A stretch of 64,000 nt of DNA from Flavivirga spongiicola (lineage in GTDB: Bacteria > Bacteroidota > Bacteroidia > Flavobacteriales > Flavobacteriaceae), in the NCBI RefSeq assembly GCF_030540825.1, contig NZ_JAUOEO010000001.1:4477001-4541000 (forward strand), read 5' to 3'. Within the stretch, counting starts at the first letter, position 1; every line of letters begins with the position of its first letter. A program made the translations under genes and the position numbers. A model generated the notes under the pieces. It had not been told where the DNA came from, ran no database searches, and saw only the letters and a program-made list of their open reading frames with translations. This document shows positions 18,241 through 46,410 of the stretch, piece after piece.

Positions 18241-18375
18241 AATAAAGAATTTCTTGAAACCAACTATCCTCGAGGTAGAGCCATAGAGATATTTAGCTGG
18301 TTTCATACCCAATCAAGTTGCCCACAGGTTTTGACCTGAAAAAAGTCAAAAACCAAAATTCTGTATTTAGATTAC
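18241..18375 (+). repeat. Dispersed hairpin repeat, copy A (degenerate, 5' part)
   Basis: It begins AATAAAGAATTTCTTGAAAC and continues through the shared blocks ACCAACTATCCTCG, GTAGAGCC, TGGTTTCATACCCAATCAAG and the decayed stem TTTTGACC…GTCAAAA. The later hairpins are missing here. It has the same orientation as copies B, C, E and F. Decay of the second stem suggests an old copy. Confidence 0.75.
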
Positions 18376-18508
18376 TCATGCATTTTATTTCATTAAATAG
18401 GAAATCGTGAATGCTTTGCATTTCCCGTTTTATTCATTATGCAATATTTTTATAATAATGAATTCATGAATCTTACGATTTCACGGGAATGACAATTTCA
18501 ATGGAAAT

Positions 18509-18664
18509 CCAGAAGCAAGCATCAGGGAATTCTTTTCGATTAAAAAACCCTATTAACACACTATTTACTTATTAATATTCATCCGTCTTTGTCTACAGTA
18601 TCATCACCATCTAAATCTATTTGGTAACGGAGGCAAGCCCCTGAGAATTCTTCTCGATTAAAAC
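18509..18664. repeat. Two 3'-tail fragments of the dispersed repeat flanking a coding-like remnant
   Basis: The tail motif GCAAGC…GGGAATTCTTTTCGATTAAA occurs at about 18512-18546 and again at 18631-18662. Read on the minus strand, 18662 to 18579 translates as FNREEFSGACLRYQ followed by IDLDGDDTVDKDG and a stop. This resembles the end of a calcium-site (D-x-D-G-D) surface protein. A diverged cousin ending YYQIDYENDGTIDTSK is on the plus strand before 37573. The fragment has no start and is not called a gene. Confidence 0.5.
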
Positions 18665-21414: not shown

Positions 21415-22992
21415 TCATCTAGCCCTTTTTTTTATGCTACATACTTGCATGAAAATAGCTGGTAAATAATTACATATTATAAAAGAAACAGAGGTTACCA
21501 AAAGAATAAACAGAGGCAAGGTCTTAATCCCGTTTTCTTTACTTATATTCAATAAAAACATCGAACCGCTACTAAAATTTAAAATATAAAACCAAGAAAA
21601 AAATGTCGTTGCTACTCCTAAAATAATTGAAATAATGAGCGCATAAATATTAGTCTTTTTTACAAATAGACCGATTAACAATAAAGGGAAAAGAATAAAT
21701 TGAAAGGAAGAAGCAAAAAAAAAGAAATAAACAGGGTCTTTCAAAAGGTCCGTCATTTTTAAAAAATACCAAAAAAGCATTATAATAAAGGCCATCATAA
21801 TAATTGCTATTTTACCAACATAATTATAACGACGATTTTCATAAGCATTTAAGTTTCCTAAGCTTTTTTGGTGTTTATTTATAACTATATCTGAAGTAAA
21901 AGAATGACTCATGGCTATTAAATAAGTATCTACTGTAGAAACAGCACACATTAATAATCCCACAAAAATTATTGCAAGCGCTATTTTCAGCCCTATTTGA
22001 AAAACATAATCACTTATTTTAAAAAAATCGATTATCAGAAATTCCTCTTGGGAAGTATCTGTTTGATAATACTGGAGTACAGGTTCTATAATATCTTTAA
22101 AGTAAATTCCAAAAATCATAAAAAGAACCAACGCTATCACTTTAAACAAACCAGACCATAAAACGCCTTTATTGGAAACCTTAAAACTTCTTGTGGCGCT
22201 AAATCTTTGCCAGGATTCTGTGGTTGTCAATAACCAGACAAAGCCAGATAAAAATGAAACAAACAGACGCAAAAACTTTGTAATAGGATTTGATTCAACC
22301 CCTAAGACCGGTTCAGGATTCAACTCTAGTTCTATAGTATGTTCAGGCTTAAATTCAATCATAAAATAAGCAGCAGCCATGCATGCTAATATGAGCATAA
22401 ACGCTTGAATTACATCTGTAACAATGATACTTTTATACCCACCTAGAATGGCGTATAATGTTATTGATCCCAATAGAGAGAAAAATACAATGACAGTATC
22501 TATTCCAAATATTGATGAAAAAATAATATCCGCAATATGTAATTCAAATATTATTGAAACAATTAATATAAGCATACTAACTACTGATATACAAAAACGT
22601 AAATATTTTATTTTTTCTTGATTATTACCGTTTATGAAAAGACTACTGATAAACTCTGGTAAAGAACCTCCGTTATTAACATCTTTAATAAATTTTTTAA
22701 AATGTTTTTTAAAAATCCAATACCCAACAATGGTTGTAACAATAGAAATAATCCCGAAAAAGATGCCTTTAAAATTAAATATATACCCTACTAAGGCAGA
22801 CATTAAAATGGTACGGAATGACAAGTCTGTCATGACCATTGTATTTATAAATGGTATGGTTTTTAACTTGCCATTAAGAAGGAAAAAGGAAGTACTGGTT
22901 CTTGCTCCTTTAATTAAATAAACTGCTTTAAATAGCAATATAATGCAAATTAAAACTAATAAAATAATTATGCTTATCTTAAATGCCCCCAT
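21415..22992 (-). CDS. Sodium:solute symporter (SSS family), copy 1
   Basis: This 525-residue inner-membrane protein has about 12-13 hydrophobic helices across its length. SSS landmarks include the segment ILGGYKSIIVTDVIQAFMLI in the fourth/fifth helix region and the conserved TTTESWQRFSATRSFKVSNKG. Near residue 340 comes VGLLMCAVSTVDTYLIAMSH, the SSS motif near the sodium site. It should take up an organic solute with Na+; the substrate is not predictable. It is about three quarters identical by eye to the copy at 33831-35408. No enzyme gene is adjacent that would name the substrate. Confidence 0.85.
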   Translation of the reverse strand: MGAFKISIIILLVLICIILLFKAVYLIKGARTSTSFFLLNGKLKTIPFINTMVMTDLSFRTILMSALVGYIFNFKGIFFGIISIVTTIVGYWIFKKHFKKFIKDVNNGGSLPEFISSLFINGNNQEKIKYLRFCISVVSMLILIVSIIFELHIADIIFSSIFGIDTVIVFFSLLGSITLYAILGGYKSIIVTDVIQAFMLILACMAAAYFMIEFKPEHTIELELNPEPVLGVESNPITKFLRLFVSFLSGFVWLLTTTESWQRFSATRSFKVSNKGVLWSGLFKVIALVLFMIFGIYFKDIIEPVLQYYQTDTSQEEFLIIDFFKISDYVFQIGLKIALAIIFVGLLMCAVSTVDTYLIAMSHSFTSDIVINKHQKSLGNLNAYENRRYNYVGKIAIIMMAFIIMLFWYFLKMTDLLKDPVYFFFFASSFQFILFPLLLIGLFVKKTNIYALIISIILGVATTFFSWFYILNFSSGSMFLLNISKENGIKTLPLFILLVTSVSFIICNYLPAIFMQVCSIKKRAR

Positions 22993-24106
22993 TATTTATA
23001 CTCTTAAAATAGTTCTTTTAAAGAAAACAAACCCTAACCTACGGTAAGTAATACAAATAAAAAAGTGAATTTTAAATAAAAAAAATTACAACCCATTAAT
23101 TAACAAAATAAAAAAATTATTAAAACAAACTATCCCCAAGGTAAGCCGTATGGCTATTTCGCTCGTTCCATACCCAATCCCTGCCTTTGTTGGCAGGCAG
23201 ACCCGATGCAAGCCTTGGAGAATTCTTTTCGATTAAAAAAATCTAGAATTAATTAAGGTAAGTCTATCACACTGCTTCTCGGAATAAAGAGTTTTAATAA
23301 TCCACATAAACTCTTACTCCTAATAATGAGTTTGAAAAACACATAAGCAGATTTCACTTTCGCGAAATCACCTTATTCATTTCGTCGAGATGACAGAACT
23401 AATAGCCATTTTGTATACCACTAATAATTAAGTTTTAATTCATCATAAACAGGTAACCGAATAAGTAACTTTCGCTTTGATTTTACTTTATTTTATCAGT
23501 TACTAAGATAACTGAAAACTGTGAATAAATTAAATCAAATTCCATTAATTTTAAATATTTTTTAAACATAAAAAGCATATCAAAAGAGACTCTAAATACG
23601 ATATCAACATATCCAAATGTTACATATTTCGCAACTTTGTTTTTAAAGTTAAGCATCTACTTTCTTTCGATCCCTAAAACTCAACTCCCAATTGTTTATT
23701 ATCCACTAAAACAAGTTTTAATCACACATAAACAAAACTTTCCCTTTTCAGTTTTAACCTTATTAGATATTTCATGCTTTATGAATTACTTTTTGTTCTA
23801 ATCTTTTATAAAAAGCTTTAATTTTTCAAGAATTGGGTAAACTAAATAACTTTTACTTTTGCTTAATTTCATTTTGACTGCACTAACGTACACTTATCAA
23901 GCAGTAACGACCACATATTATTTACACTTAGTATTTAAACACAGTTATGCCTTAATTTTGTTGATGTATGATAATGTACAGAACTGCCTTATTAAAAAAA
24001 CAGGTTTAAATTTATTATCAATACTAAAATGCAACCGAATGAAACTTACTTGATTCGTCGAGCTTTTATATATACAACAATCCACTAGTTTAAAATTATA
24101 GTACAG
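22993..24106. other. Gene-free stretch carrying one copy of the dispersed repeat
   Basis: Apart from the repeat copy at 23124-23239, no coding frame with a signal, family match or start site was found. Short open frames such as one near 23859-24053 read as random AT-rich translation. It contains the upstream regions of the symporter and of the small secreted protein. Confidence 0.5.
23124..23239 (+). repeat. Dispersed hairpin repeat, copy B (internally deleted)
   Basis: Shared blocks are AAACAAACTATCCCCAAGG, TATTTCGCTCGTTCCATACC and then, directly joined, CCTGCCTTTG…GGCAGGCAG and GATGCAAGCC…GAATTCTTTTCGATTAAA. The middle hairpins present in copies C, E, F and G are missing, so this copy arose by internal deletion. 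Confidence 0.75.
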
Positions 24107-28031: not shown

Positions 28032-28239
28032 CTACCGTGTGTACACATATTTAAAAAAGACACGAATGACACAAATTCACACGAATCCAGCACTCTATGC
28101 CGTAGACTAGACTCAACATGAATACGAATCCCTGGCCCATACAGGCTTGAAATCTGTCTATCGACAGATTAATTAGTGAAAATTTGTGATATTCGTGTCA
28201 AGCTTTTTATTGTTCAATATTTGTGTGCACACACGGTAG
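28032..28239. mobile_element. MITE-like element, copy 1 (208 bp), inserted in a hairpin
   Basis: The terminal inverted repeats are CTACCGTGTGTACACA (left) and its partner TGTGTGCACACACGGTAG (right). It is flanked by the 11-bp duplication TTTTCCCAAAA at 28021-28031 and 28240-28250. The interior has an inner hairpin AATCTGTC-TATC-GACAGATT and a pair GACACGAAT…ATTCGTGTC near the ends. It has no coding capacity. It is about 90% identical to the element at 33363-33568. Removing one duplication restores a perfect 13-bp-arm hairpin (GTCTTTGGCTTTT / AAAAGCCAAAGAC) as the target. The 11-bp duplication would suit an IS4-like transposase acting in trans, which is inferred. Confidence 0.8.
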
Positions 28240-33185: not shown

Positions 33186-33650
33186 CAAATAAAGAATTTC
33201 TTGAAATAAACTATCCTCGCAGAGCCTTAGAGGTATTTCGCTCGTTTCATACCCAATCAAGTTGAACACAGGTTTTGAGCTCAAGGTCAAAAATCGAAAT
33301 TCTGTATTTTACCTCACCCAGGATTGCCAAAAAAAAGCAATTCTGACCTCTCCAAAGGAGAGCTACTGTGTGTACACATATTTAAAAAAGACACGAATGA
33401 CACAAATTCATACGAATCCCGCACTCTATGGCGTAGATTGGACTCAACATAAATACGAATCTCTGGCCCATACAGGCTTAAAATCTGTCTATCGACAGAT
33501 TAATTAGTGAAAATTTGTGATATTCGTGTCAAGCTTTTCATTGTTCAATATTTGTGCACACACGGTAGCTCCAAAGGAGAGGCTAATAGGAAACCCTGCC
33601 TTTGCCAACAGGCAGGCCCGCCCCAAGGGTCGGAGAATTTTTAGATTAAA
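33186..33650 (+). repeat. Dispersed hairpin repeat, copy C, split by a MITE
   Basis: It begins ACCAAATAAAGAATTTCTTG and contains, in order: GTATTTCGCTCGTTTCATACC, the stem TTTTGAGCTCAAGGTCAAAA, the stem CAGGATTGCC…GCAATTCTG, the stem CTCTCC-AAA-GGAGAG (where the MITE is inserted), the stem CCTGCCTTTGCC…GGCAGG, and the tail GGAGAATTTTTAGATTAAA. Without the 206-bp insertion and one 13-bp duplication it would be about 246 bp. Confidence 0.85.
33363..33568. mobile_element. MITE-like element, copy 2 (206 bp), nested in repeat copy C
   Basis: It has the same terminal inverted repeats as copy 1 (left CTACTGTGTGTACACA, right TGTGCACACACGGTAG) and a 13-bp duplication CTCCAAAGGAGAG at 33350-33362 and 33569-33581. 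The target is the palindromic stem CTCTCC-AAA-GGAGAG, which is intact in copies E and F of the host repeat. It is non-coding. Intact ends and an exact duplication indicate a fairly recent transposition. Confidence 0.85.
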
Positions 33651-33830: not shown

Positions 33831-35408
33831 CTACCCCCTTTTCTTTATGTTGCATACTCGCATGAAAATAATCGGTAAATAGTTAATTATTATAAAAGAA
33901 ACGGTGGTTAGTAAAAAAATAAACAGGGGCAAGCTCTTAATCCCATCTTCTTTAGTCATATTTAATAAAAAAGTCGAACCTTTACTAAAATTTAAAATAT
34001 AAAACCAAGAAAAAAACGTCGTTGTTATTCCTAAAATAATTGAAAAAATAAGCACATAAATGTTTACCCTTTTTACAAATAAACCAATTAACAACAGAGA
34101 AAAAAGAATACATTGAAAAGAAGAAGCAAAAAAAAAGAAATAAACAGGGTCTTTCAAAATATCTGTCATTTTTAAAAAATACCAAACAATCATTATAATA
34201 AAAGATGTAATAATAATTGCTATTTTGCCAACATAACTATAACGGAGGTTTTCATAAGTGTTTAACCCCCCCAGCCTTTTTGAAGATCTATTTAAAGCCA
34301 TATCTGAAGTAAAAGAATGGCTAATACCTATCAGGTAACTGTCTACTGTAGAGACCGCGCACATTAGTAGCCCAACAAAAATTAATGCAAGTGCTATTTT
34401 TAATCCTTTTTTAAAAACATAATCGTTTATTTTAAAAAAATAGTCAACTAGAACTAAGTCATTAGAAGGAACCTTTTCATAGTATTCAACCACAGGCTCA
34501 ATAACATCCCTGATATAAATTCCGAAAGCTATAAAAAAAACCAGAGCGATCATCTTAAACAAACCAGACCACAAAACTCCTTTATTAGAAATTTTAAAGC
34601 TTCTTGTGGCACTAAATCTTTGCCAGGATTCTGTGGTTGTTAACAGCCATACAAAGCCTGATAAAAATGACGTCAATAAACGTAAATACTTAGTAAAACT
34701 CGAAGTTGTTTCATCATGGAATGCTGTTTCAGTAGTCAACTTCAGTTCTATGTCATGTTCGGGTTTAAATTCAATCATAAAATAGGCAGCAGCCATGCAT
34801 GCCAATATGAGCATGCACATTTGAATTATATCTGTAACAATGATGCCTTGATACCCACCTAAAATGGCGTATAATGTTATTAATCCCAGCAGAGGAAAAA
34901 AAGCGATACCATTATCTATTCCAAATATTGATGAAAAAATACTACCCGCAATATGCAATTCAAATATTATTGAAACGATTAAGATAAGTATACTAACTAC
35001 TGAGATGCAATAACGTACATACTTTATTTTTTCTTGATTATTACCGTTTATAAAAAGACTACTGATAAACTCCGGTAATGTCCCTCCATTATTAACATCT
35101 TCAATAAATTTTTTAAAATACTTTTTAAAAATCCAATATCCCGAAATGGTTGTAACAATAGATATGACGCCAAAAAAAATACCTTTAAAACCAAACACGT
35201 ACCCTATTGTTGTAGTAATTAAAATAATTCGGAATGACAAGTCTGTCATAACCATGGCATTTATAAATGAGACGGTTTTTAATTTGCCCTTGAGGAGAAA
35301 AAAAGACGTGGCCTTTCTTGATTTTTTTAATAAACGGGATGCTTCTAGCAGTGATATAATACTAATTAAAATTAGTATTATAATTATACTTAACTTAAAG
35401 ATTTCCAT
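33831..35408 (-). CDS. Sodium:solute symporter (SSS family), copy 2
   Basis: The 525-residue membrane protein has the same length and helix pattern as copy 1 (21415-22992), with shared landmarks TTTESWQRFSATRSFKISNK, LGGYQGIIVTDIIQMCMLI and VGLLMCAVSTVDSYLIGISH. Differences cluster in loops, especially the loop around residues 228-240 and that around 310-325. This suggests divergence after duplication and perhaps different substrates. It is bounded by 37-bp inverted repeats and lies among repeat copies C and E. No linked enzyme names the solute. The paralogue fragment at 36403-36524 shows a third copy once existed nearby. Confidence 0.85.
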   Translation of the reverse strand: MEIFKLSIIIILILISIISLLEASRLLKKSRKATSFFLLKGKLKTVSFINAMVMTDLSFRIILITTTIGYVFGFKGIFFGVISIVTTISGYWIFKKYFKKFIEDVNNGGTLPEFISSLFINGNNQEKIKYVRYCISVVSILILIVSIIFELHIAGSIFSSIFGIDNGIAFFPLLGLITLYAILGGYQGIIVTDIIQMCMLILACMAAAYFMIEFKPEHDIELKLTTETAFHDETTSSFTKYLRLLTSFLSGFVWLLTTTESWQRFSATRSFKISNKGVLWSGLFKMIALVFFIAFGIYIRDVIEPVVEYYEKVPSNDLVLVDYFFKINDYVFKKGLKIALALIFVGLLMCAVSTVDSYLIGISHSFTSDMALNRSSKRLGGLNTYENLRYSYVGKIAIIITSFIIMIVWYFLKMTDILKDPVYFFFFASSFQCILFSLLLIGLFVKRVNIYVLIFSIILGITTTFFSWFYILNFSKGSTFLLNMTKEDGIKSLPLFIFLLTTVSFIIINYLPIIFMRVCNIKKRG

Positions 35409-35754: not shown

Positions 35755-36402
35755 CCAAATAAAGAATTTCTTGAAACCAACTATCCCCAGGGTAGAGCCC
35801 AATGTCATTAAGTTAATGATATTAAAATGTCAGTTTGAGCGCAGTCGAAAACAATAAAACTCTGTCTTTCGATAGCATTTCGACTGCGCTACCATTGACG
35901 GATTTCATACAAAGACCGTTTTCATTCCTAATTCTTTAGCCATTCTAACGACTGCTTTTTGCTTATTTAGCAGCATTTTTTCTTGATATTTTTGTATTCC
36001 ATTTTCCGCGTATTCGAGCCCTTTAACAAATAATTTCCAATATAACTCAGCCAATTTTCTGGCTACTGCTTTTATAGCTACTAATCCTCCTTTTCTTGAA
36101 CGAATTTTTCGTCCAAATGCTCAATGTGACAGTATAGAATAAACACCCTTAACTTAATGACATTAGGGTAGAGCCACAGGGGTATTTCGCTGGTTTGATA
36201 CCCAATCAAGTTGCCCACAAGGTTTTGACCTCAAGGTCAAAAAATCGAAACTCTGTATTTTACCTCACCCAGAATTGCCTTTTTTGGCAATTCTAACCTC
36301 TCCAAAGGAGAGGTTAATAGGAAACCCTGCCTTTGCCGGTTTACCAAGCCAAAGGCATGGCAGGCAGGCCCGACGCAAGCATCTGAGAATTTTTAGATTA
36401 AA
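35755..36402 (+). repeat. Dispersed hairpin repeat, copy E, split by an IS relic
   Basis: The 5' part (ACCAAATAAAGAATTTCTTG to GTAGAGCC) ends at 35799 and resumes at 36165 after a 364-bp insertion. The 3' part has the stems TTTTGACCTCAAGGTCAAAA, AGAATTGCC-TTTTTT-GGCAATTCT, ACCTCTCC-AAA-GGAGAGGT, a longer CCTGCCTTTGCC…GGCAGGCAGG stem, and the tail GAGAATTTTTAGATTAAA. The tail directly abuts a symporter fragment. Confidence 0.85.
35801..36164 (-). mobile_element. IS110-like transposase relic inserted in repeat copy E
   Basis: The ends are AATGTCATTAAGTTAA and its perfect inverse TTAACTTAATGACATT. The 11-bp AGGGTAGAGCC is duplicated at 35789-35799 and 36165-36175. The minus strand encodes AFGRKIRSRKGGLVAIKAVA, then RKLAELYWKLFVKGLEYAEN and further on RMAKELGMKTVFV before a stop, matching the C-terminus of IS110-family transposases. 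The catalytic N-terminal part is absent. Between that stop and the end sits another inverted repeat (GCGCAGTCGAAA / TTTCGACTGCGC). Because IS110 elements normally make no such duplication, this may be a chimera or a non-autonomous derivative. Confidence 0.65.
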
Positions 36403-36524
36403 TAGGTATCTACTATAGAAACCGCACACATAAGTAACCCTACAAAAATGACTGCAAGCGCTATTTTTAATCCCTTTTGAAAAACATAATCGTTTATTTA
36501 AAAAAAGTCGATTAGAGTAAGCAT
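36403..36524 (-). pseudogene. Internal fragment of a third sodium:solute symporter gene
   Basis: Minus-strand translation reads LTLIDFF-stop-INDYVFQKGLKIALAVIFVGL and then LMCAVSIVDTY. It aligns with residues about 315-355 of the intact symporters (DYVFKKGLKIALALIFVGLL, MCAVSTVDSY). It has an in-frame stop and lacks both ends. One edge meets the 3' tail of repeat copy E exactly, pointing to a rearrangement at the repeat. Confidence 0.8.
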
Positions 36525-36852
36525 ACATCGGGGATCATTTAACAACAGCGGTTACTACAATCATTTCTGCACGGAACAATATACGCTTATCAAATTCACC
36601 CATCAACTCATTCTTATTTTCTTATAATCATAATATCACAGTTATTATTTTATTTATGCCATTTACATTATAATTACTACCACTTATGGTTTATGCAGTG
36701 AATTATTTTATGATATCACTTACTTTTAACGTACTTATTTTCTGTAAAGAAATAAGGTTATCTCTTATTATTTTGAAAGAATAATGTGGATGACGGGCTA
36801 GTATTAGTCATCATTGTCAAGCGGCCCATCACTATTGGTCGCAAAACAAAGT
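36525..36852. other. Gene-free stretch, nothing recognised
   Basis: No supported gene is present. The minus strand near 36785-36835 reads NSDGPLDNDD before a stop, a short D-rich calcium-site-like scrap similar in style to other remnants in this region. It is too short to assign. Confidence 0.4.
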
Positions 36853-37065
36853 GAATAAATAATTTCTTGAAACCAACTATCCTCAGGGGTATTTCACTGG
36901 TTTCATACCCAATCAAGTTGCCCACAAGGTTTTGACCTCAAGGTCAAAAATCGAAACTCTGTATTATACCTCACCCGTAATCGCTTTTAGCGATTACGAC
37001 CTCTCCTAAGGAGAGGTGAATAAGGAAAAACCGACGCAGAGCCTTGAGGAATTCTTTAGATTAAT
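36853..37065 (+). repeat. Dispersed hairpin repeat, copy F
   Basis: This copy is uninterrupted. Blocks: ATAAATAATTTCTTGAAACC, TATTTCACTGGTTTCATACC, TTTTGACCTCAAGGTCAAAA, the stem GTAATCGCT-TTT-AGCGATTAC, the stem ACCTCTCC-TAA-GGAGAGGT, and the tail GAGCCTTGAGGAATTC then TTTAGATTAA. The third stem differs from that of copies C, E and G on both arms, yet pairs perfectly. The GGCAGG stem is missing. Confidence 0.88.
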
Positions 37066-37607: not shown

Positions 37608-40600
37608 ATGAATAAATTTTTACTTTTAAAAACAACAGTACTCTTTTCTTTATACATTTTCAATAATTGGCATGTCCAAGCACAAAAAAAATTACATTAC
37701 TCCCCTCCAAAAGCTTATGATGTATCTACTGCGAAGTATACTACAGTATTTTCAATAACAGCACAAGAGACCGATGTTCAGGGGATGCGCTTTAATTCCG
37801 ACGGGACCAAACTATATGTTATTGGTACTGTTGGCGATGCTATTGATGAGTATACACTTAGCACCCCCTATAGCTTATCTGGAGGTGTTAGCCATATAGG
37901 TGTTTATCCACTCTCTGGGGTTGTTTTTCCTACAGGTATGGTTTTTAATGCTTCAGGTACTAAGCTCTATGTTATAGATAACGGAGGGGCTCAAACTGAT
38001 GTTACCGATAAAATTGTGCAATACACACTTGGAACAGCATATGATTTATCGACTATAAGCACCACAACAGTGACTTTAGGGACTTCGGGAGTTGATAATA
38101 GCGGTCATGGGATTGCTATTAGTCCCGATGATACAAAACTATATCTTGTTGGAAACCAGAATAACAAAATATTTCAATATGATCTTTCCGCACCCGATGT
38201 TTTAACTGGAGCGACAACTGTTAAGAATTTGAGCATTACAGATAGTTTTCCTACTGGTATGGCGTTTAATGATGACGGTACTAAACTATATGTGTCTGCG
38301 ACGTATACAGATAAAATTAACCAATATGATCTTTCTACACCTTACGATGTCTCTACGGGAGTTAAAATAAGAAATATAGATATTAAAGGTAAAGATAATG
38401 CCCCAAGAGGGGTAGCTTTATCTCAAGATGGTTCAAAATTTTTCTTTTTAGGGAATCAACATAATCAGGTATACGAATATACCTTAGGAGATAGATTCTA
38501 TCGAGAATCTTTAGTCAACGATGGTGGTTTGGATAATACAAGCCCTTTAAGCATTAGGATAAGTGGAGATACCTTTGCAGACAGTAATAACAATAATTTA
38601 TTAGAGGTTGGTACAGAAGTAACGATTGGAAATCTCCCATCAGGACTAATCCCCATACTAACACTCAATGCAGGAAAAACAGAAGCAGTATTAAGCTTTG
38701 GAGGTAAAGCTATAGATCACCAAAGTATTAATGATATATCGAGTCTCACCTTTACCTTTACCAATGCAGCTTTTACTAGTGGTAATGCCTCTAATGTAGA
38801 AAATTCAGGGTCAATCACACCCTATAACAGTGGTATTGGGGTTAACTTTAAGGACAATAATCGTAGTTTATCCTATTACCCACCTAAGTCTTATAACCTT
38901 AGCATAGAAGGATATTTAAGAGATTTCGAAGTGGGAGGACAAGATAATACCCCGTGGGATATTACTTTTAATTTAGATGGCACTAAGATGTTTGTGCTGG
39001 GGACTCAGAAAAACAGTATTTATCAATATAACCTTACTACAGCCTATGACATCTCTACCGCAAGTTTTACAACAGATTTTTCGACAAATAACAAGGAGGT
39101 TAGCCCTTCGGGTTTAGCATTTAATGATGATGGAAGCAAGATGTATGTCATTGGTTATTATGGCGATGATATTAACCATTACGATCTATCTATACCCTTC
39201 GATCTGTCTGGTACAATTACTTATAGAAATAGTTATTCGGTAAAAGATAAGGAAACAGCCCCTACAGATCTTAGTTTTAATAATGATGGAACCAAGCTGT
39301 ATGTCGTTGGTAATACTGGAGCAGATATTACAGAGTATACACTTTCTATTCCCTATGATCTTTCTACAATGTCTTTTCAGGATGAATTTCCAATATCGGG
39401 AGAAGGGTATCCAACCGATATGGCTTTTAACTATAATGGAACCAAGTTATATGTATTGGGCACACTCACCGATAAAATTTATCAATATGATCTTCCCACC
39501 CCTTATGATGTGTCTACAGGAACAAATAGAATAGAGGTTAGTGTTATAACAAGGGATAATGCCCCAAGAGGCATCGTTTTTTCTCAAGATGGATCAAAGC
39601 TTTTCTTTGTAGGGCAGCAACACGATAAGATTTATGAATACAAAATAGGAGAAGAAAATTATAAGGAATCTACCGCTAATGATGGCAGCATAGATAATAG
39701 CGATCCCTTAGTTATTGCATTGCGTGGCGATACTTTTAAGAATACTGCCAGCTTAACCTATGGGACAGATTTTACCATAGGTAATTTACCATCAGGACTT
39801 AACCCAGTACTCACACTTAATGCAGAAAGAACGGAAGGCGTTTTAACCTTTAACGGTACAGCTACAGATCACCAAAGTATCAATAATATATCGAGCCTTA
39901 CCTTTTCATTTACCGATGGAGCTTTTATTGGAGGAGCAGCCTCTCTGATAAGCAATTCGGGAAAAGACAGCCCATATAGTAGTGCTGTTGGTATTGAATT
40001 TTCTAATAGTCCTTTTGTAAGCACGTGGACAACAACGGTTTCCAACGAGTCCATTACGATTCCTGTTGCGCCGGGAGCAGCGTATGATTATGACGTAGAC
40101 TGGGACAACGATGGTACCTTTGATGCTTTAGGGCTCACAGCCGGAGCAACGCACAGTTACCCGGTCGCTGGAAACCATACCATTCGCATTCGGGGCCAGT
40201 TCCCAAGGGTCTATTTCAACAACTCGGGGGACAAGGACAAGATTATCTCGGTGGACCAGTGGGGGACCGGGGCATGGGCCTCTATGGAAGGTGCTTTTTA
40301 TGGTTGCTCCAACCTTGCGGGACAGGCATCGGATGTCCCGGACCTTTCTAATGTCACTAGTATGGTATATATGTTCAGAGCAGCCACTTCCTTTAATCAT
40401 GATATCGGGAATTGGGATGTGAGCAATGTCACGGATATGTCGGGTATGTTCATTTCTGCCACTTCCTTTGATCAGGATATCGGGAATTGGGATGTGAGCA
40501 ATGTCACATATATGAGCAGTATGTTCTCTTCTGCCCCTTCTTTTGATCAGGATATCGGGAATTGGAACGTAAGCAATGTCACGGACATGAGCGATATGTT

Positions 40601-43600
40601 TTATCTGCCCAGCTTTATGAACGGTGGCTTGTCCACGGCGAATTACGACGCCTTGCTCACTGGCTGGGGGGCTCTGGACCTAAAGCCAAATGTGGTATTC
40701 GGTGCCAATAAGAGTAGATTTTGTAGAGCAAAACAAATAAGGCTGGATATCATCAATACCAAGAACTGGACCATTACGGACGGTGGGGAAAACTGCCCGC
40801 CCGAAGCCCCTTTTGTAAGCACGTGGACAACAACGGTTTCCAACGAGTCCATTACGATTCCTGTTGCGCCGGGAGCAGCGTATGATTATGACGTAGACTG
40901 GGACAACGATGGTACCTTTGATGCTTTAGGGCTCACAGCCGGAGCAACGCACAGTTACCCGGTCGCTGGAAACCATACCATTCGCATTCGGGGCCAGTTC
41001 CCAAGGGTCTATTTCAACAACTCGGGGGACAAGGACAAGATTATCTCGGTTGACCAGTGGGGGACGGGAGTATGGTCCTCTATGGAAGGTGCTTTTTATG
41101 GTTGCTCCAACCTTGCGGGACAGGCATCGGATGTCCCGGACCTTTCTAATGTCACTAGTATGGTATATATGTTCAGAGCAGCCACTTCCTTTAATCATGA
41201 TATCGGGAATTGGGATGTGAGCAATGTCACGGATATGTCGGGTATGTTCATTTCTGCCACTTCCTTTGATCAGGATATCGGGAATTGGGATGTGAGCAAT
41301 GTCACATATATGAGCAGTATGTTCTCTTCTGCCCCTTCTTTTGATCAGGATATCGGGAATTGGAACGTAAGCAATGTCACGGACATGAGCGATATGTTTT
41401 ATCTGCCCAGCTTTATGAACGGTGGCTTGTCCACGGCGAATTACGACGCCTTGCTCACTGGCTGGGGGGCTCTGGACCTAAAGCCAAATGTGGTATTCGG
41501 TGCCAATAAGAGTAGATTTTGTAGAGCAAAACAAATAAGGCTGGATATCATCAATACCAAGAACTGGACCATTACGGACGGTGGGGAAAACTGCCCGCCC
41601 GAAGCCCCTTTTGTAAGCACGTGGACAACAACGGTTTCCAACGAGTCCATTACGATTCCTGTTGCGCCGGGAGCAGCGTATGATTATGACGTAGACTGGG
41701 ACAACGATGGTACCTTTGATGCTTTAGGGCTCACAGCCGGAGCAACGCACAGTTACCCGGTCGCTGGAAACCATACCATTCGCATTCGGGGCCAGTTCCC
41801 AAGGGTCTATTTCAACAACTCGGGGGACAAGGACAAGATTATCTCGGTGGACCAGTGGGGGACCGGGGCATGGGCCTCTATGGAAGGTGCTTTTTATGGT
41901 TGCTCCAACCTTGCGGGACAGGCATCGGATGTCCCGGACCTTTCTAATGTCACTAGTATGGTATATATGTTCAGAGCAGCCACTTCCTTTAATCATGATA
42001 TCGGGAATTGGGATGTGAGCAATGTCACGGATATGTCGGGTATGTTCATTTCTGCCACTTCCTTTGATCAGGATATCGGGAATTGGGATGTGAGCAATGT
42101 CACATATATGAGCAGTATGTTCTCTTCTGCCCCTTCTTTTGATCAGGATATCGGGAATTGGAACGTAAGCAATGTCACGGACATGAGCGATATGTTTTAT
42201 CTGCCCAGCTTTATGAACGGTGGCTTGTCCACGGCGAATTACGACGCCTTGCTCACTGGCTGGGGGGCTCTGGACCTAAAGCCAAATGTGGTATTCGGTG
42301 CCAATAAGAGTAGATTTTGTAGAGCAAAACAAATAAGGCTGGATATCATCAATACCAAGAACTGGACCATTACGGACGGTGGGGAAAACTGCCCGCCCGA
42401 AGCCCCTTTTGTAAGCACGTGGACAACAACGGTTTCCAACGAGTCCATTACGATTCCTGTTGCGCCGGGAGCAGCGTATGATTATGACGTAGACTGGGAC
42501 AACGATGGTACCTTTGATGCTTTAGGGCTCACAGCCGGAGCAACGCACAGTTACCCGGTCGCTGGAAACCATACCATTCGCATTCGGGGCCAGTTCCCAA
42601 GGGTCTATTTCAACAACTCGGGGGACAAGGACAAGATTATCTCGGTGGACCAATGGGGGACCGGAGCATGGACCTCTATGGAAAGTGCCTTTTATGGCTG
42701 TGCCAACCTTGCGGGACAGGCATCGGATGCCCCGGACCTGTCTAATGTCACTGATATGGCATATATGTTCAGAGGAGCCACTTCTTTTAATCAGGATATC
42801 GGGAATTGGGATGTGAGCAATGTGACTACTATGTCTGTTATGTTCTATAATGCAACTTCTTTTAATCAGGATATTGGGGATTGGGATGTAAGTAAGGTAA
42901 CTACTATGTCTTATATGTTCAATGGAGCAACTTCTTTTAATCAGGATATTGGGGATTGGGATGTAAGTAAGGTAAATAATATGTCAGTTATGTTCAAAGG
43001 AGCAACTTCTTTTAATCAAGATATTGGGAATTGGGATACCAGTAATGTCACTGGTATGGCATATATGTTCTCTTCTGCCTTTTCTTTTAATCAGGATATT
43101 GGGAATTGGAATACAAGTAATGTCACTGGTATGGCACATATGTTCGCGGTAGCAACTTCTTTTAATCAAGATATTGGGAATTGGAATGTAAGTAAGGTAA
43201 CTGATATGGCGGCTATGTTCATTGCAGCAACTTCTTTTAATCAAGATCTTGGAAATTGGGACGTAAGCAAGGTAACTGATATGGACGGTATGTTTAATTC
43301 TGTTACCCTTTCTATGGCTAATTACGATGCCTTACTCACGGGCTGGGGCACTCTGGATCTAAAGACAAATGTAATATTTGATGGAGGTAACAGTACCTTT
43401 TGCAGTGCAAAACAAGTAAGACAGGATATCACCGACAACAAGAACTGGACTATTACGGACGGCGGGGAAAATTGCCCGCCCGAATCTCATTTTGTAAGCA
43501 CATGGACAACAACGGGCTCGAACGAGTCCATTACCGTTCCTGTTGCGCCCGGAACAGCCTATGACTATGACGTAGACTGGGACAACGATGGTACCTTTGA

Positions 43601-46097
43601 TGTTTTTGGGCTCACTACTAATGCAACCCACAATTACCCAGTCCCGGGAAATCATACCATTCGAATTAAAGGGCAATTCCCAAGGATCTATTTCAACAAC
43701 TCGGGGGACAAGGACAAGATTATCTCGGTGGACCAATGGGGGACGGGAGTATGGGCCTCTATGGATAATGCTTTTTATGGGTGCGCCAACCTTGCGGGAC
43801 AGGCATCGGATGCCCCGGATCTTTCTAATGTCACTAGTATGATACGTATGTTCTTAGGAGCCACTTCTTTTAATCAGGATATCGGGAATTGGGATGTAAA
43901 TAAGGTAAATAATATGTGGGGTATGTTCCTTAGTGCCACTTCTTTCAATCAGGATATTGGGGATTGGGATACAAGTAGGGTAATTAGTATGGGAAGTATG
44001 TTTCATTCAGCAGCTTCTTTTAATCAGGATATTGGAAATTGGGATGTAAGTAAGGTAACTAATATGTTGGCTATGTTCCTTGGAGCAAATTCTTTTAATC
44101 AAGATATTGGGAATTGGGATACCAGTAATGTGACTAATATGTCGACTATGTTCATTGGAGCAACTTCTTTTAATCAAGATATTGGGGATTGGGATACCAG
44201 TAATGTGACTAATATGGGACATATGTTCCATAATGCCACTTCTTTTAATCAGGATATTGGGGATTGGGATGTAAGCAATGTCACTGATATGAGTAATATG
44301 TTTAATTCTGTTACCCTTTCTACGGCTAATTACGATGCCTTGCTCACGGGCTGGGGCGCTCAAGATTTAAAGGCAAATGTAATATTTGGTGGAGGTAACA
44401 GTACCTTTTGCGATGCAAAACAAGTAAGACAGGATATCATCGACAACAAGAACTGGACTATTACGGACGGTGGGGAAAATTGCCCGCCCGAATCTCATTT
44501 TGTAAGCACATGGACAACAACGGGCTCGAACGAGTCCATTACCGTTCCTGTTGCGCCCGGAACAGCCTATGACTATGACGTAGACTGGGACAACGATGGT
44601 ACCTTTGATGTTTTTGGGCTCACTACTAATGCAACCCACAATTACCCAGTCCCGGGAAATCATACCATTCGAATTAAAGGGCAATTCCCAAGGATCTATT
44701 TCAACAACTCGGGGGACAAGGACAAGATTATCTCGGTGGACCAATGGGGGACGGGAGTATGGGCCTCTATGGATAATGCTTTTTATGGGTGCGCCAACCT
44801 TGCGGGACAGGCATCGGATGCCCCGGATCTTTCTAATGTCACTAGTATGATACGTATGTTCTTAGGAGCCACTTCTTTTAATCAGGATATCGGGAATTGG
44901 GATGTAAATAAGGTAAATAATATGTGGGGTATGTTCCTTAGTGCCACTTCTTTCAATCAGGATATTGGGGATTGGGATACAAGTAGGGTAATTAGTATGG
45001 GAAGTATGTTTCATTCAGCAGCTTCTTTTAATCAGGATATTGGAAATTGGGATGTAAGTAAGGTAACTAATATGTTGGCTATGTTCCTTGGAGCAAATTC
45101 TTTTAATCAAGATATTGGGAATTGGGATACCAGTAATGTGACTAATATGTCGACTATGTTCATTGGAGCAACTTCTTTTAATCAAGATATTGGGGATTGG
45201 GATACCAGTAATGTGACTAATATGGGACATATGTTCCATAATGCCACTTCTTTTAATCAGGATATTGGGGATTGGGATGTAAGCAATGTCACTGATATGA
45301 GTAATATGTTTAATTCTGTTACCCTTTCTACGGCTAATTACGATGCCTTGCTCACGGGCTGGGGCGCTCAAGATTTAAAGGCAAATGTAATATTTGGTGG
45401 AGGTAACAGTACCTTTTGCGATGCAAAACAAGTAAGACAGGATATCATCGACAACAAGAACTGGACTATTACGGACGGTGGGGAAAACTGCCCGCCAGAG
45501 ATTGTGCTTAATGGAAATGCTACAATATCGATAGAACAAGGCACCACTTATACGGAGTCAGGTGCCACGGCAAGTGACGATATCGATGGCGACATCAGTG
45601 CCAACATTGTAATAGATGATAGTGAGGTTAATGTGAATGTGGTAGGTAATTATACAGTACGTTATAATGTTAGTGATGCTGCAGGAAATCCTGCGACAGA
45701 AGTAACTCGAACGATAACTATCACTTCTCCAGATGTTACCGACAAACCAGCTATTAGTTTAAAAGCACCTAACCTGCAAGATATAGAAGTAATACAAGAG
45801 GTAGGGTTTAATGACCCGGAAGAGCTTGAGCTTGGTATAAATGAGCTTTCATTATACCCTAACCCAGTTTCTGTAATCGATACAGATATTTATTTTACTA
45901 TGCCAAGTAACGTACAGCAATTATCGGTAACTATATATGATGTTACAGGTAAACGTGTTGCAAACTACGGAGACCTACCTGTAAAAAAAGGGACGAATAG
46001 TATAAGTAAACCTCAGGTGGATGAAGGTTTGTATTTTTTTAAATTTTCATTTAATAACGGAAAACAATACATAACAAAAGGTTTAATTATTCAATAA
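37608..46097 (+). CDS. Giant secreted repeat protein (2829 aa): propeller-like, BspA/DUF285 repeats, T9SS type A
   Basis: The signal peptide is cleaved near VQAQKK (about residue 25). Residues about 35-310 and 425-690 hold two sets of propeller-like repeats of the pattern [12 protein letters not shown]…DxIxxYxLSTPYD, each followed by a segment (NLPSGLxPxLTLN…ATDHQSIN). Residues about 803-2634 are six large blocks. Each has a PKD/Ig-like part (TWTTTxSNESITxPVAPG…[14 protein letters not shown]) followed by BspA/DUF285 leucine-rich-like repeats ([21 protein letters not shown]). Residues about 2635-2705 form a DUF5011/HYR-like Ig domain ([18 protein letters not shown]), and about 2745-2829 a T9SS type A domain ([18 protein letters not shown]). 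It is a surface or released adhesin-like protein. Some blocks are nearly identical at the DNA level. Confidence 0.9.
40017..42410 (+). repeat. Three nearly identical 798-bp in-frame repeats in the giant gene
   Basis: Units start at 40017, 40815 and 41613 (266 codons each). Units one and three look identical; unit two differs at a handful of bases near 41050-41080. A fourth, longer unit (42411-43493, 1083 bp) shares the first third and then diverges. The units are clearly richer in G and C than the flanking genes and use codons unlike them (many GCC, CGG, GGG, AAC). Confidence 0.95.
43494..45509 (+). repeat. Two nearly identical 1008-bp in-frame repeats in the giant gene
   Basis: Units start at 43494 and 44502 (336 codons each) and are the same almost base for base, including silent sites. 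Each has the PKD-like part of the 798-bp family with changed codons, then seven BspA-type repeats. Such identity means recent duplication or ongoing gene conversion. Confidence 0.95.
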
Positions 46098-46139: not shown

Positions 46140-46410
46140 TTAATCTAAAAATTCTCCGACCCTTGGGTCGGGCCTGCCTGCTGGCAAAGGTAGGGTTTCC
46201 TATTAACCTCTCCCTTGGAGAGGTCAGAATTGCTTTTTTGACAATTCTGGGTGAGGTAAAATACAGAATTTCGATTTTTGACCTTGAGATCAAAACCTTG
46301 TGGACAAATTGATTGGGTATGAAACCAGCGAAATACCCCTGTGAATCTGCCCTGAGGGTAGTTGGTTTCAAAAAATTCTTTAATAAAGAATTTTTTGAAA
46401 CCAACTACCC
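46140..46410 (-). repeat. Dispersed hairpin repeat, copy G (inverted), ending in a 55-bp palindrome
   Basis: Read on the minus strand it carries all blocks: AAAGAATTTTTTGAAACC, GGTATTTCGCTGGTTTCATA, TTTTGATCTCAAGGTCAAAA, AGAATTG-TCAAAAAAG-CAATTCT, ACCTCTCC…GGAGAGGT, the CCTGCC stem and the tail GGAGAATTTTTAGATTAAA. It starts 43 bp after the stop of the giant gene, with its 3' tail toward it. At 46356-46410 the 5' end meets an inverted 5' stub of a second copy; arms of 27 bp pair perfectly around one central base. Confidence 0.9.

Follow-up and report, generated by a model that had tools for sequence, protein, structure and literature searches.

A Multi-Hairpin Repeat Family of Flavivirga Is Very Probably a Nonautonomous IS200/IS605-Type Element with Whalefall-1-Related Cargo

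Repeat copies and neighboring features in the window

The window, a 64,000-nucleotide stretch of the Flavivirga spongiicola genome (contig NZ_JAUOEO010000001.1, positions 4,477,001 to 4,541,000), contains copies A, B, C, E, F, and G of a short repeat composed of several hairpins. Two sodium:solute symporter genes (21415 to 22992 and 33831 to 35408) are 81% identical to each other, and a third remnant of this gene (36397 to 36514) adjoins copy E, the edge of the remnant coinciding with the end of the copy. A genome scan with the neighboring symporter protein found no relatives. The window also holds an open reading frame of 2,829 residues (37608 to 46097) with 12 DUF285 stretches, a Por secretion tail, and long internal duplications that are up to 97% identical.

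All six copies described in the initial annotation exist, with stated positions off by no more than a few bases (23124 falls within the copy at 23108 to 23232), and their similarity is far above chance, with BLAST E values down to 9e-63 within the window. The strand given below for each copy is that of the transposon “top strand,” which is the reverse complement of the orientation in which the repeat was first read (here, the annotated orientation). Copy A (18242 to 18539, minus strand; TTAA target at 18540 to 18543) has the center of another subfamily and lacks the ACCTCTCC stem. Downstream of it, at about 18624 to 18660, lies a solitary left-end hairpin with its tail (GGAGGCAAGCC...CTTCTCGATTAA). 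Copy B (23108 to 23232, minus strand) measures 125 bp and has both ends and the CCTGCC hairpin, while its middle is absent. Copy C (33189 to 33645, minus strand) is split at about 33363 to 33568 by another short repeat of about 206 bp, a second copy of which is found at 28032 to 28239; the two are 94% alike and have the ends ctactgtgtg/cacacacggtag.

Copy E (35759 to 36397, minus strand; TTAA target at 36398 to 36401) is likewise split, by a 376-bp insert (35800 to 36175) that is flanked by GGGTAGAGCC as a 10-bp target duplication and that, with its ends CAATGTCATTAAG and CTTAACTTAATGACATT, is a different kind of short element. The remainder of copy E comprises an inner stem, TTTTGACC/GGTCAAAA (36223 to 36242); a module resembling the RNA candidate whalefall-1 (36261 to 36316, minus strand), which consists of a variable stem, AGAATTGCC/GGCAATTCT, and the stem ACCTCTCC/GGAGAGGT; an optional CCTGCC...GGCAGG hairpin (36326 to 36368); and the left end (LE; 36369 to 36397, minus strand), with the putative recognition hairpin region and a tail reaching to the insertion point by TTAA, as judged by homology with other copies. 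In copy F (36855 to 37060, minus strand; TTAA target at 37061 to 37064), the right-end (RE) region with GAAACCA...TGGTTTC (36855 to 36909, minus strand) is followed by an inner module (36968 to 37017, minus strand) that has a wholly different stem, GTAATCGCT/AGCGATTAC, and no Rfam match listed at an E value of ≤1. The LE hairpin of copy F folds no more, and the folding of its RE hairpin does not rise above that of many shuffled sequences. Copy G (46144 to 46383, plus strand; TTAA target at 46140 to 46143) is inserted against the orientation of its replichore, carries a whalefall-1-like module (46203 to 46258, plus strand), and has a snap-back (46356 to 46410), an inverted duplication of its own right end that is 98% identical over 55 bp.

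The stems had been described as following a fixed order. This order is complete in copies C, E, and G (three of six); copy F lacks the CCTGCC stem, copy A has a different center, and copy B has no middle. Nor does the fixed tail, described as ending in GATTAAA, mark the end of the element, as its last TTAA is target DNA and lies outside.

Subfamilies and distribution

In the annotated orientation, a typical copy starts with ATAAAGAATTTCTTGAAACC and ends with GAATTCTTTTCGA or GAATTTTTAGA, followed by TTAA. Copies are about 180 to 300 bp long, too short for a transposase gene, and have palindromes near both ends. Class 1 (copies C, E, F, and G) contains ACCTCACCC, a variable stem, and ACCTCTCC/GGAGAGGT, whereas class 2 has GATTCCCGC/GCGGGAATGACAATTTC in place of this center and is found at 13 places in the F. 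spongiicola genome within three mismatches. The center of copy A is longer than that of class 2. The CCTGCC hairpin varies in position between copies, and six of its seven genome matches lie inside known copies. The family has constant ends and an exchanged middle.

The F. spongiicola genome (5.9 Mb) contains 46 BLAST matches to the repeat at an E value of ≤1e-3 and, at the same threshold, 60 matches to a profile of the 5' half, the last dozen of which are weak. With stricter filters, the repeat was found in 14 of 60 genomes: every one of the 12 from the genus (F. spongiicola included), 2 of the 25 from elsewhere in the family, and none of the 23 from the wider order. Two of the genomes (G010 and G004) contain copies that are nearly identical, are sharply bounded, and lie in unrelated flanking sequence. 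We found no paper describing this element in the open-licence literature, and the mechanism offered below is meant for the genus-wide family as a whole.

Insertion sites and target

The joined flanks of 12 insertion sites were searched against 12 genomes of the genus, and 4 sites were read across the joint, by comparison with empty-site relatives in nine genomes (L011), seven genomes (L077), two genomes (L015), and one genome (L024); a fifth site with a spanning match (L018) is outside this set. At all four sites read, the insertion is precise, lies beside TTAA or TTCA, and has no target duplication: the element, ATAAAG...GA, directly precedes a single copy of the motif, TTAA (TTCA in L077), so that the order on the other strand is TTAA, the element, and then T. 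At L011, TTAA is kept at this point in only four of the nine relatives, the others having drifted, and the TTCA of L077 recurs in two of seven relatives (G007 and G002), the others having TTTA.

The extended target TTTAA is present at 38 of 48 sites and its first T at 40 of 48; the TTAA part is favored by the search pattern, the first T being free of that bias. These 48 sites are what remained of 52 rows once L067 and L085 (both with poor ends), the duplicate L013 hit, and a row whose flank was too short had been removed. In 8 of the 52 rows, the motif and the stop codon of the neighboring gene overlap.

Two other classes of element were considered. A classical miniature inverted-repeat element (MITE) was rejected, since there is no duplication at the four sites and the two ends are only loosely similar, with no terminal inverted repeats. 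A retrotransposed element, SINE- or group II-like, might account for the absence of a target duplication and for truncated copies that mostly retain the 3' end in the annotated orientation (among 30 loci, the 5' side is missing from six copies and the 3' side from one). However, a search for RVT_1 gave no matches in the F. spongiicola genome, compared with 3 of 14 control genomes, and the ends and the target match those of IS200 elements instead. The idea was dropped on the empty RVT_1 search, and we give it almost no credence.

Ends and transposase-bearing relatives

The ends of the repeat are homologous to those of TnpA-bearing IS200 elements, both within the genus and in other Flavobacteriaceae. 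A repeat copy (L101) and an IS200 element (L149), both in G004, are 95% identical over 40 bp at the left end (E = 8e-12) and 90% identical over 31 bp at the right-end hairpin (E = 3e-5); the RE tail is not common to both. L149, L151, L152, and L153 have a left end as in the repeat and a similar right-end hairpin, and L150 and L160 are without repeat-type ends. When 30 loci with Y1 transposase genes were scanned, clear left-end matches were found at the IS200-type loci L149, L152, and L153 only, with weaker partial matches at L158, L171, and L174. In the named genomes, 15 loci were found, and among the 9 displayed, the left end is present in seven and the right-end hairpin in seven. The TnpA protein scores 129 bits against the NCBIfam model transpos_IS200 (cutoff, 55), and its relatives of solved structure include 2xm3 and the ISHp608 transposase (2a6m). 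Within the genus, Y1 matches of at least 80 bits occur in G001, G002, G004, G006, and G011; the reading frame of L151 contains a TAG. As single-stranded DNA, the two ends of L101 fold unusually well: only 3 (LE) and 2 (RE) of 200 shuffled sequences reach the same value, and the ends of L149 likewise fold better than nearly all shuffles. The outer hairpins of the repeat are the predicted transposase-recognition hairpins. The RE tail of the repeat (..GTTCGTTTCAAGAAATTCTTTAT) is longer than that of the IS elements found (..GTTCAT), which, together with the weak Y1 matches of G010 described below, weighs against these elements as the exact mobilizer.

The F. spongiicola genome contains no IS200-type transposase; its single Y1 match is a REP-associated tyrosine transposase (RAYT). 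Its own copies are therefore probably fossils. The RAYT gene (L108, 1237 to 1794) is flanked by the hairpins CGCTAAAC..GTTTAGTGGCG, which are unlike those of the repeat. REP repeats and REPINs are small hairpin repeats spread by a Y1 HUH enzyme (PMC3116915; PMC6006769). Mobilization of the repeat by a RAYT, as for REP/BIME repeats, was considered. That a RAYT is the sole Y1 match of F. spongiicola speaks for it, as does G010, in which a burst of near-identical copies is accompanied by three Y1 matches of only 29 to 40 bits, compared with 80 to 128 bits for the IS200 type. Because the clear end matches of the repeat are to IS200 TnpA elements and the hairpin pair around the F. spongiicola RAYT is a different one, we regard this as very unlikely.

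Orientation and replication

On contig C1 of the F. spongiicola genome, the copies share one orientation in the arc that runs from about 4.15 Mb across zero to 2.07 Mb and have the opposite one in the other arc, and the third-position GC skew, from which the direction of replication was inferred, switches at about 2.1 and 4.1 to 4.3 Mb. The skew was taken from 21 samples of 20 kb (4-kb pieces being too noisy), one of which, at 380 kb, is ambiguous. The orientation of 27 of 31 C1 copies at ≥45 bits fits this pattern (P = 1.7e-5), as does that of 39 of 48 at ≥22 bits. With free breakpoints, 32 of 36 copies at ≥34 bits fit, a number reached by 3 of 2,000 shuffles. Four of four further places also fit. 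Copy G is among the four misfits on C1, two of which are close to a skew switch. In G001, the orientation of 25 of 27 copies fits (P = 3e-6; 24 of 27 with the least favorable breakpoint tried) and switches between 1.72 and 1.95 Mb, where the GC3 skew turns. Gene direction in G001 follows the skew poorly and thus does not explain the orientation bias. The leading strand is usually G-rich; if this holds here, the reverse complement of the annotated strand would lie on the lagging-strand template, as in IS200/IS605 elements, the orientation of which follows replication through this template (PMC5371812).

A probable nonautonomous IS200/IS605-type element

Taken together, the homologous ends, the TnpA-bearing relatives, the insertion beside TTAA with no duplication, and the replication-linked orientation suggest that the repeat is very probably a nonautonomous, PATE-like transposable element of the IS200/IS605 type that would be mobilized in trans by a Y1 HUH TnpA and the inner stems of which, the variable stem among them, are whalefall-1-related cargo. 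In this mechanism, the TnpA would be encoded outside the repeat. It would recognize the pair of subterminal hairpins on a single strand of the DNA, cleave next to the TTTAA flank, and excise a single-stranded circle, which would then be inserted 3' of a new TTAA on the template of the lagging strand, leaving no target duplication. We infer that the mover is a TnpA of the IS200 family, that the intermediate is single-stranded, and that the window copies are immobile now. L149 in G004 encodes a candidate TnpA for such mobilization. Two possibilities had been raised at the outset, namely, that the repeat is a structured RNA and that it is hairpin DNA on which a mobilizing enzyme acts. The same four lines of evidence strongly support the second possibility; a structured RNA is not needed to explain the element as a whole but may apply to the inner module, which resembles an RNA candidate.

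The proposed element shares features with known systems. The palindrome-associated transposable elements (PATEs) of Haloquadratum are likewise short and free of a transposase gene, have IS605-like palindromes near their ends, produce no target duplication, and are hit by other small repeats (PMC3119063), whereas the Flavobacteriaceae repeat has ends of the IS200 type (TnpA only), a TTTAA target, and a conserved inner part with several hairpins. With IS200/IS605 elements such as IS608, it has in common the subterminal hairpins on the top strand, the insertion 3' of a short left-flank motif, and the next-base preference (PMC5934647); it differs from them in having no transposase gene and an RE tail longer than that of the IS200 relatives found.

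Stem covariation and folding strand

Both arms of the variable stem had been said to change together between copies, and this holds on more data. In a set of 22 sequences with 18 distinct arm pairs, 133 of 144 cells are paired, a value reached by none of 2,000 shuffles (mean, 117; maximum, 127). This value is qualified in two ways: the whalefall-1 model, with which 14 of the sequences were found, favors paired arms in its own scoring, and the shuffles ignore relatedness. The stem of the left end (the 3' end in the annotated orientation) covaries as well. Among 26 hand-picked hairpins, from which irregular ones were excluded, 20 cells are changed on both sides, compared with 8.4 in shuffled sets (0 of 500 reaching this number); two of five measures, at 103 and 61 of 500 shuffles, fall short of significance. 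Both arms of the recognition stem change between IS elements (GAGGC/GCCTC, GCAGC/GCTGC, and GACGC/GCGTC). The covarying stems are two things: a recognition hairpin, which changes together with its enzyme family, and a whalefall-1-related inner cassette.

Most non-Watson-Crick cells of the left-end stem read A-C on the annotated strand and hence G-T on the other strand. Over nine pairs, 28 A-C cells were counted versus 6 G-T cells (17 versus 3 without the dominant position; 52 versus 9 in a looser set), the related copies not being independent. The GACC stem shows no A-C bias (9 versus 13). As far as such counts can indicate, the bias in the left-end stem fits folding of the transposon top strand. 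A consensus fold computed for the 5' half of the repeat was unconvincing and carries no weight here.

The covariation might instead be an effect of mutation, through template switching between hairpin arms, rather than of selection for pairing. Template switching can give rise to stems and mend them (PMC8794818), and snap-back inverted duplications are present in copy G (46356 to 46410) and in L010. However, four IS elements have one core (GAGGC, GACGC, or GCAGC) in both their LE and RE hairpins, as would be expected of one recognition system; the LE/RE core match is looser in the repeats, and the point concerns the end hairpins, not the inner stem. On balance, we consider template switching a somewhat unlikely explanation. 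The pairing of the inner stem may be kept by a need for single-strand folding, by repair of one arm from the other through template switching, or because the cargo is an RNA. Covariation between the copies of a repeat can arise from the mobility of single-stranded DNA and need not imply a functional RNA.

A whalefall-1-like inner module

The repeat had not been recognized as a named family, which is correct at Rfam's own cutoffs, as no Rfam match was found in the window. The closest named family is whalefall-1 (RF01762), with which the inner module shares two adjacent hairpins, CUCUCC..GGAGAG followed by a variable stem and then GGGUGAGG. At a permissive threshold, nine distinct class 1 copies match RF01762, each on the top strand, with E values of 3e-4 to 0.4. 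The modules of copies E and G score 27.3 and 25.4 bits, respectively, and the best of 20 loci scanned (L074) scores 31.5 bits; copy F and several other class 1 loci among these 20 have no match. The gathering score of 37 is not reached by any copy in the F. spongiicola genome, and it is exceeded by an element of another genus (G145; 40.6 bits). Since unrelated families also appear at such E values, single matches are weak, and the resemblance is drawn from the number of matches and from the CAGA and GGGUGAGG shared in the alignment.

Among 299 Flavobacteriaceae genomes, 30 have an RF01762 match at an E value of ≤0.05, 2 of which are above the cutoff; 1 of 14 control genomes has a match, which is under the cutoff. 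The flanks of 45 of 69 rows, comprising all 25 matches of at least 28 bits and 20 weaker ones, were judged against shuffled flanks, 7 rows from the F. spongiicola genome and 17 rows without fetched flanks being excluded. Of the 25 stronger matches, 14 lie between both IS200-type ends, 3 lie beside one, and 8 lie beside none; for all 45, the numbers are 18, 3, and 24. A single genome, G158, accounts for 11 of the 17 end-bearing matches (11 of its 11 have ends), and 6 of 14 remain without it. By genome, ends are seen in 5 of 11 with matches of at least 28 bits, the F. spongiicola genome not being counted. The two matches above the cutoff are divided, that of G145 lying between both ends and that of G166 beside none.

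Whalefall-1 was classed by Weinberg et al. (2010) as certainly an RNA and was described as a noncoding RNA known from whale-fall sequence only (PMC2864571), whereas in Flavivirga a module resembling it forms the center of a probable mobile element and stays under the gathering score. If the authors' judgment is carried over, the repeat might mainly be a dispersed, whalefall-1-like gene for a structured RNA that is transcribed, acts in cis or in trans, and owes only its spread to the mobile ends. The nine matching copies, the covariation of the variable stem amid fixed surroundings, and the absence of IS200-type ends at 8 of the 25 stronger matches (in 6 of the 11 genomes) agree with such a gene. 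Conversely, every match in the F. spongiicola genome is under the gathering score and at E values shared with unrelated families, 17 of the 25 stronger matches do carry IS200-type ends (albeit 11 of them in one genome), and the module is replaced by other hairpins in several subfamilies. We therefore consider an RNA gene as the main identity of the repeat to be distinctly unlikely and prefer the nonautonomous element. Within Flavobacteriaceae, whalefall-1 would often, not always, appear to be cargo of this kind of element. It is a tentative proposal, somewhat short of probable, that whalefall-1 in this family often serves as a hairpin cassette in a transposon that moves as single-stranded DNA, with its pairing kept for the folding of single-stranded DNA or as a passenger RNA, and that other context-free two-hairpin RNA candidates may be likewise. 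It would give whalefall-1, an orphan RNA candidate since its publication in 2010, a testable new interpretation.

Whalefall-1-like modules of 31 to 42 bits with no IS200-type ends alongside were seen in other genera (L243, L245, L249, and L250), and the module of L249 sits within a short direct duplication. A Flavo-1 RNA (RF01705) is present in the F. spongiicola genome outside the window (L011, 2122 to 2195), with a score of 53.2 bits against a cutoff of 42.
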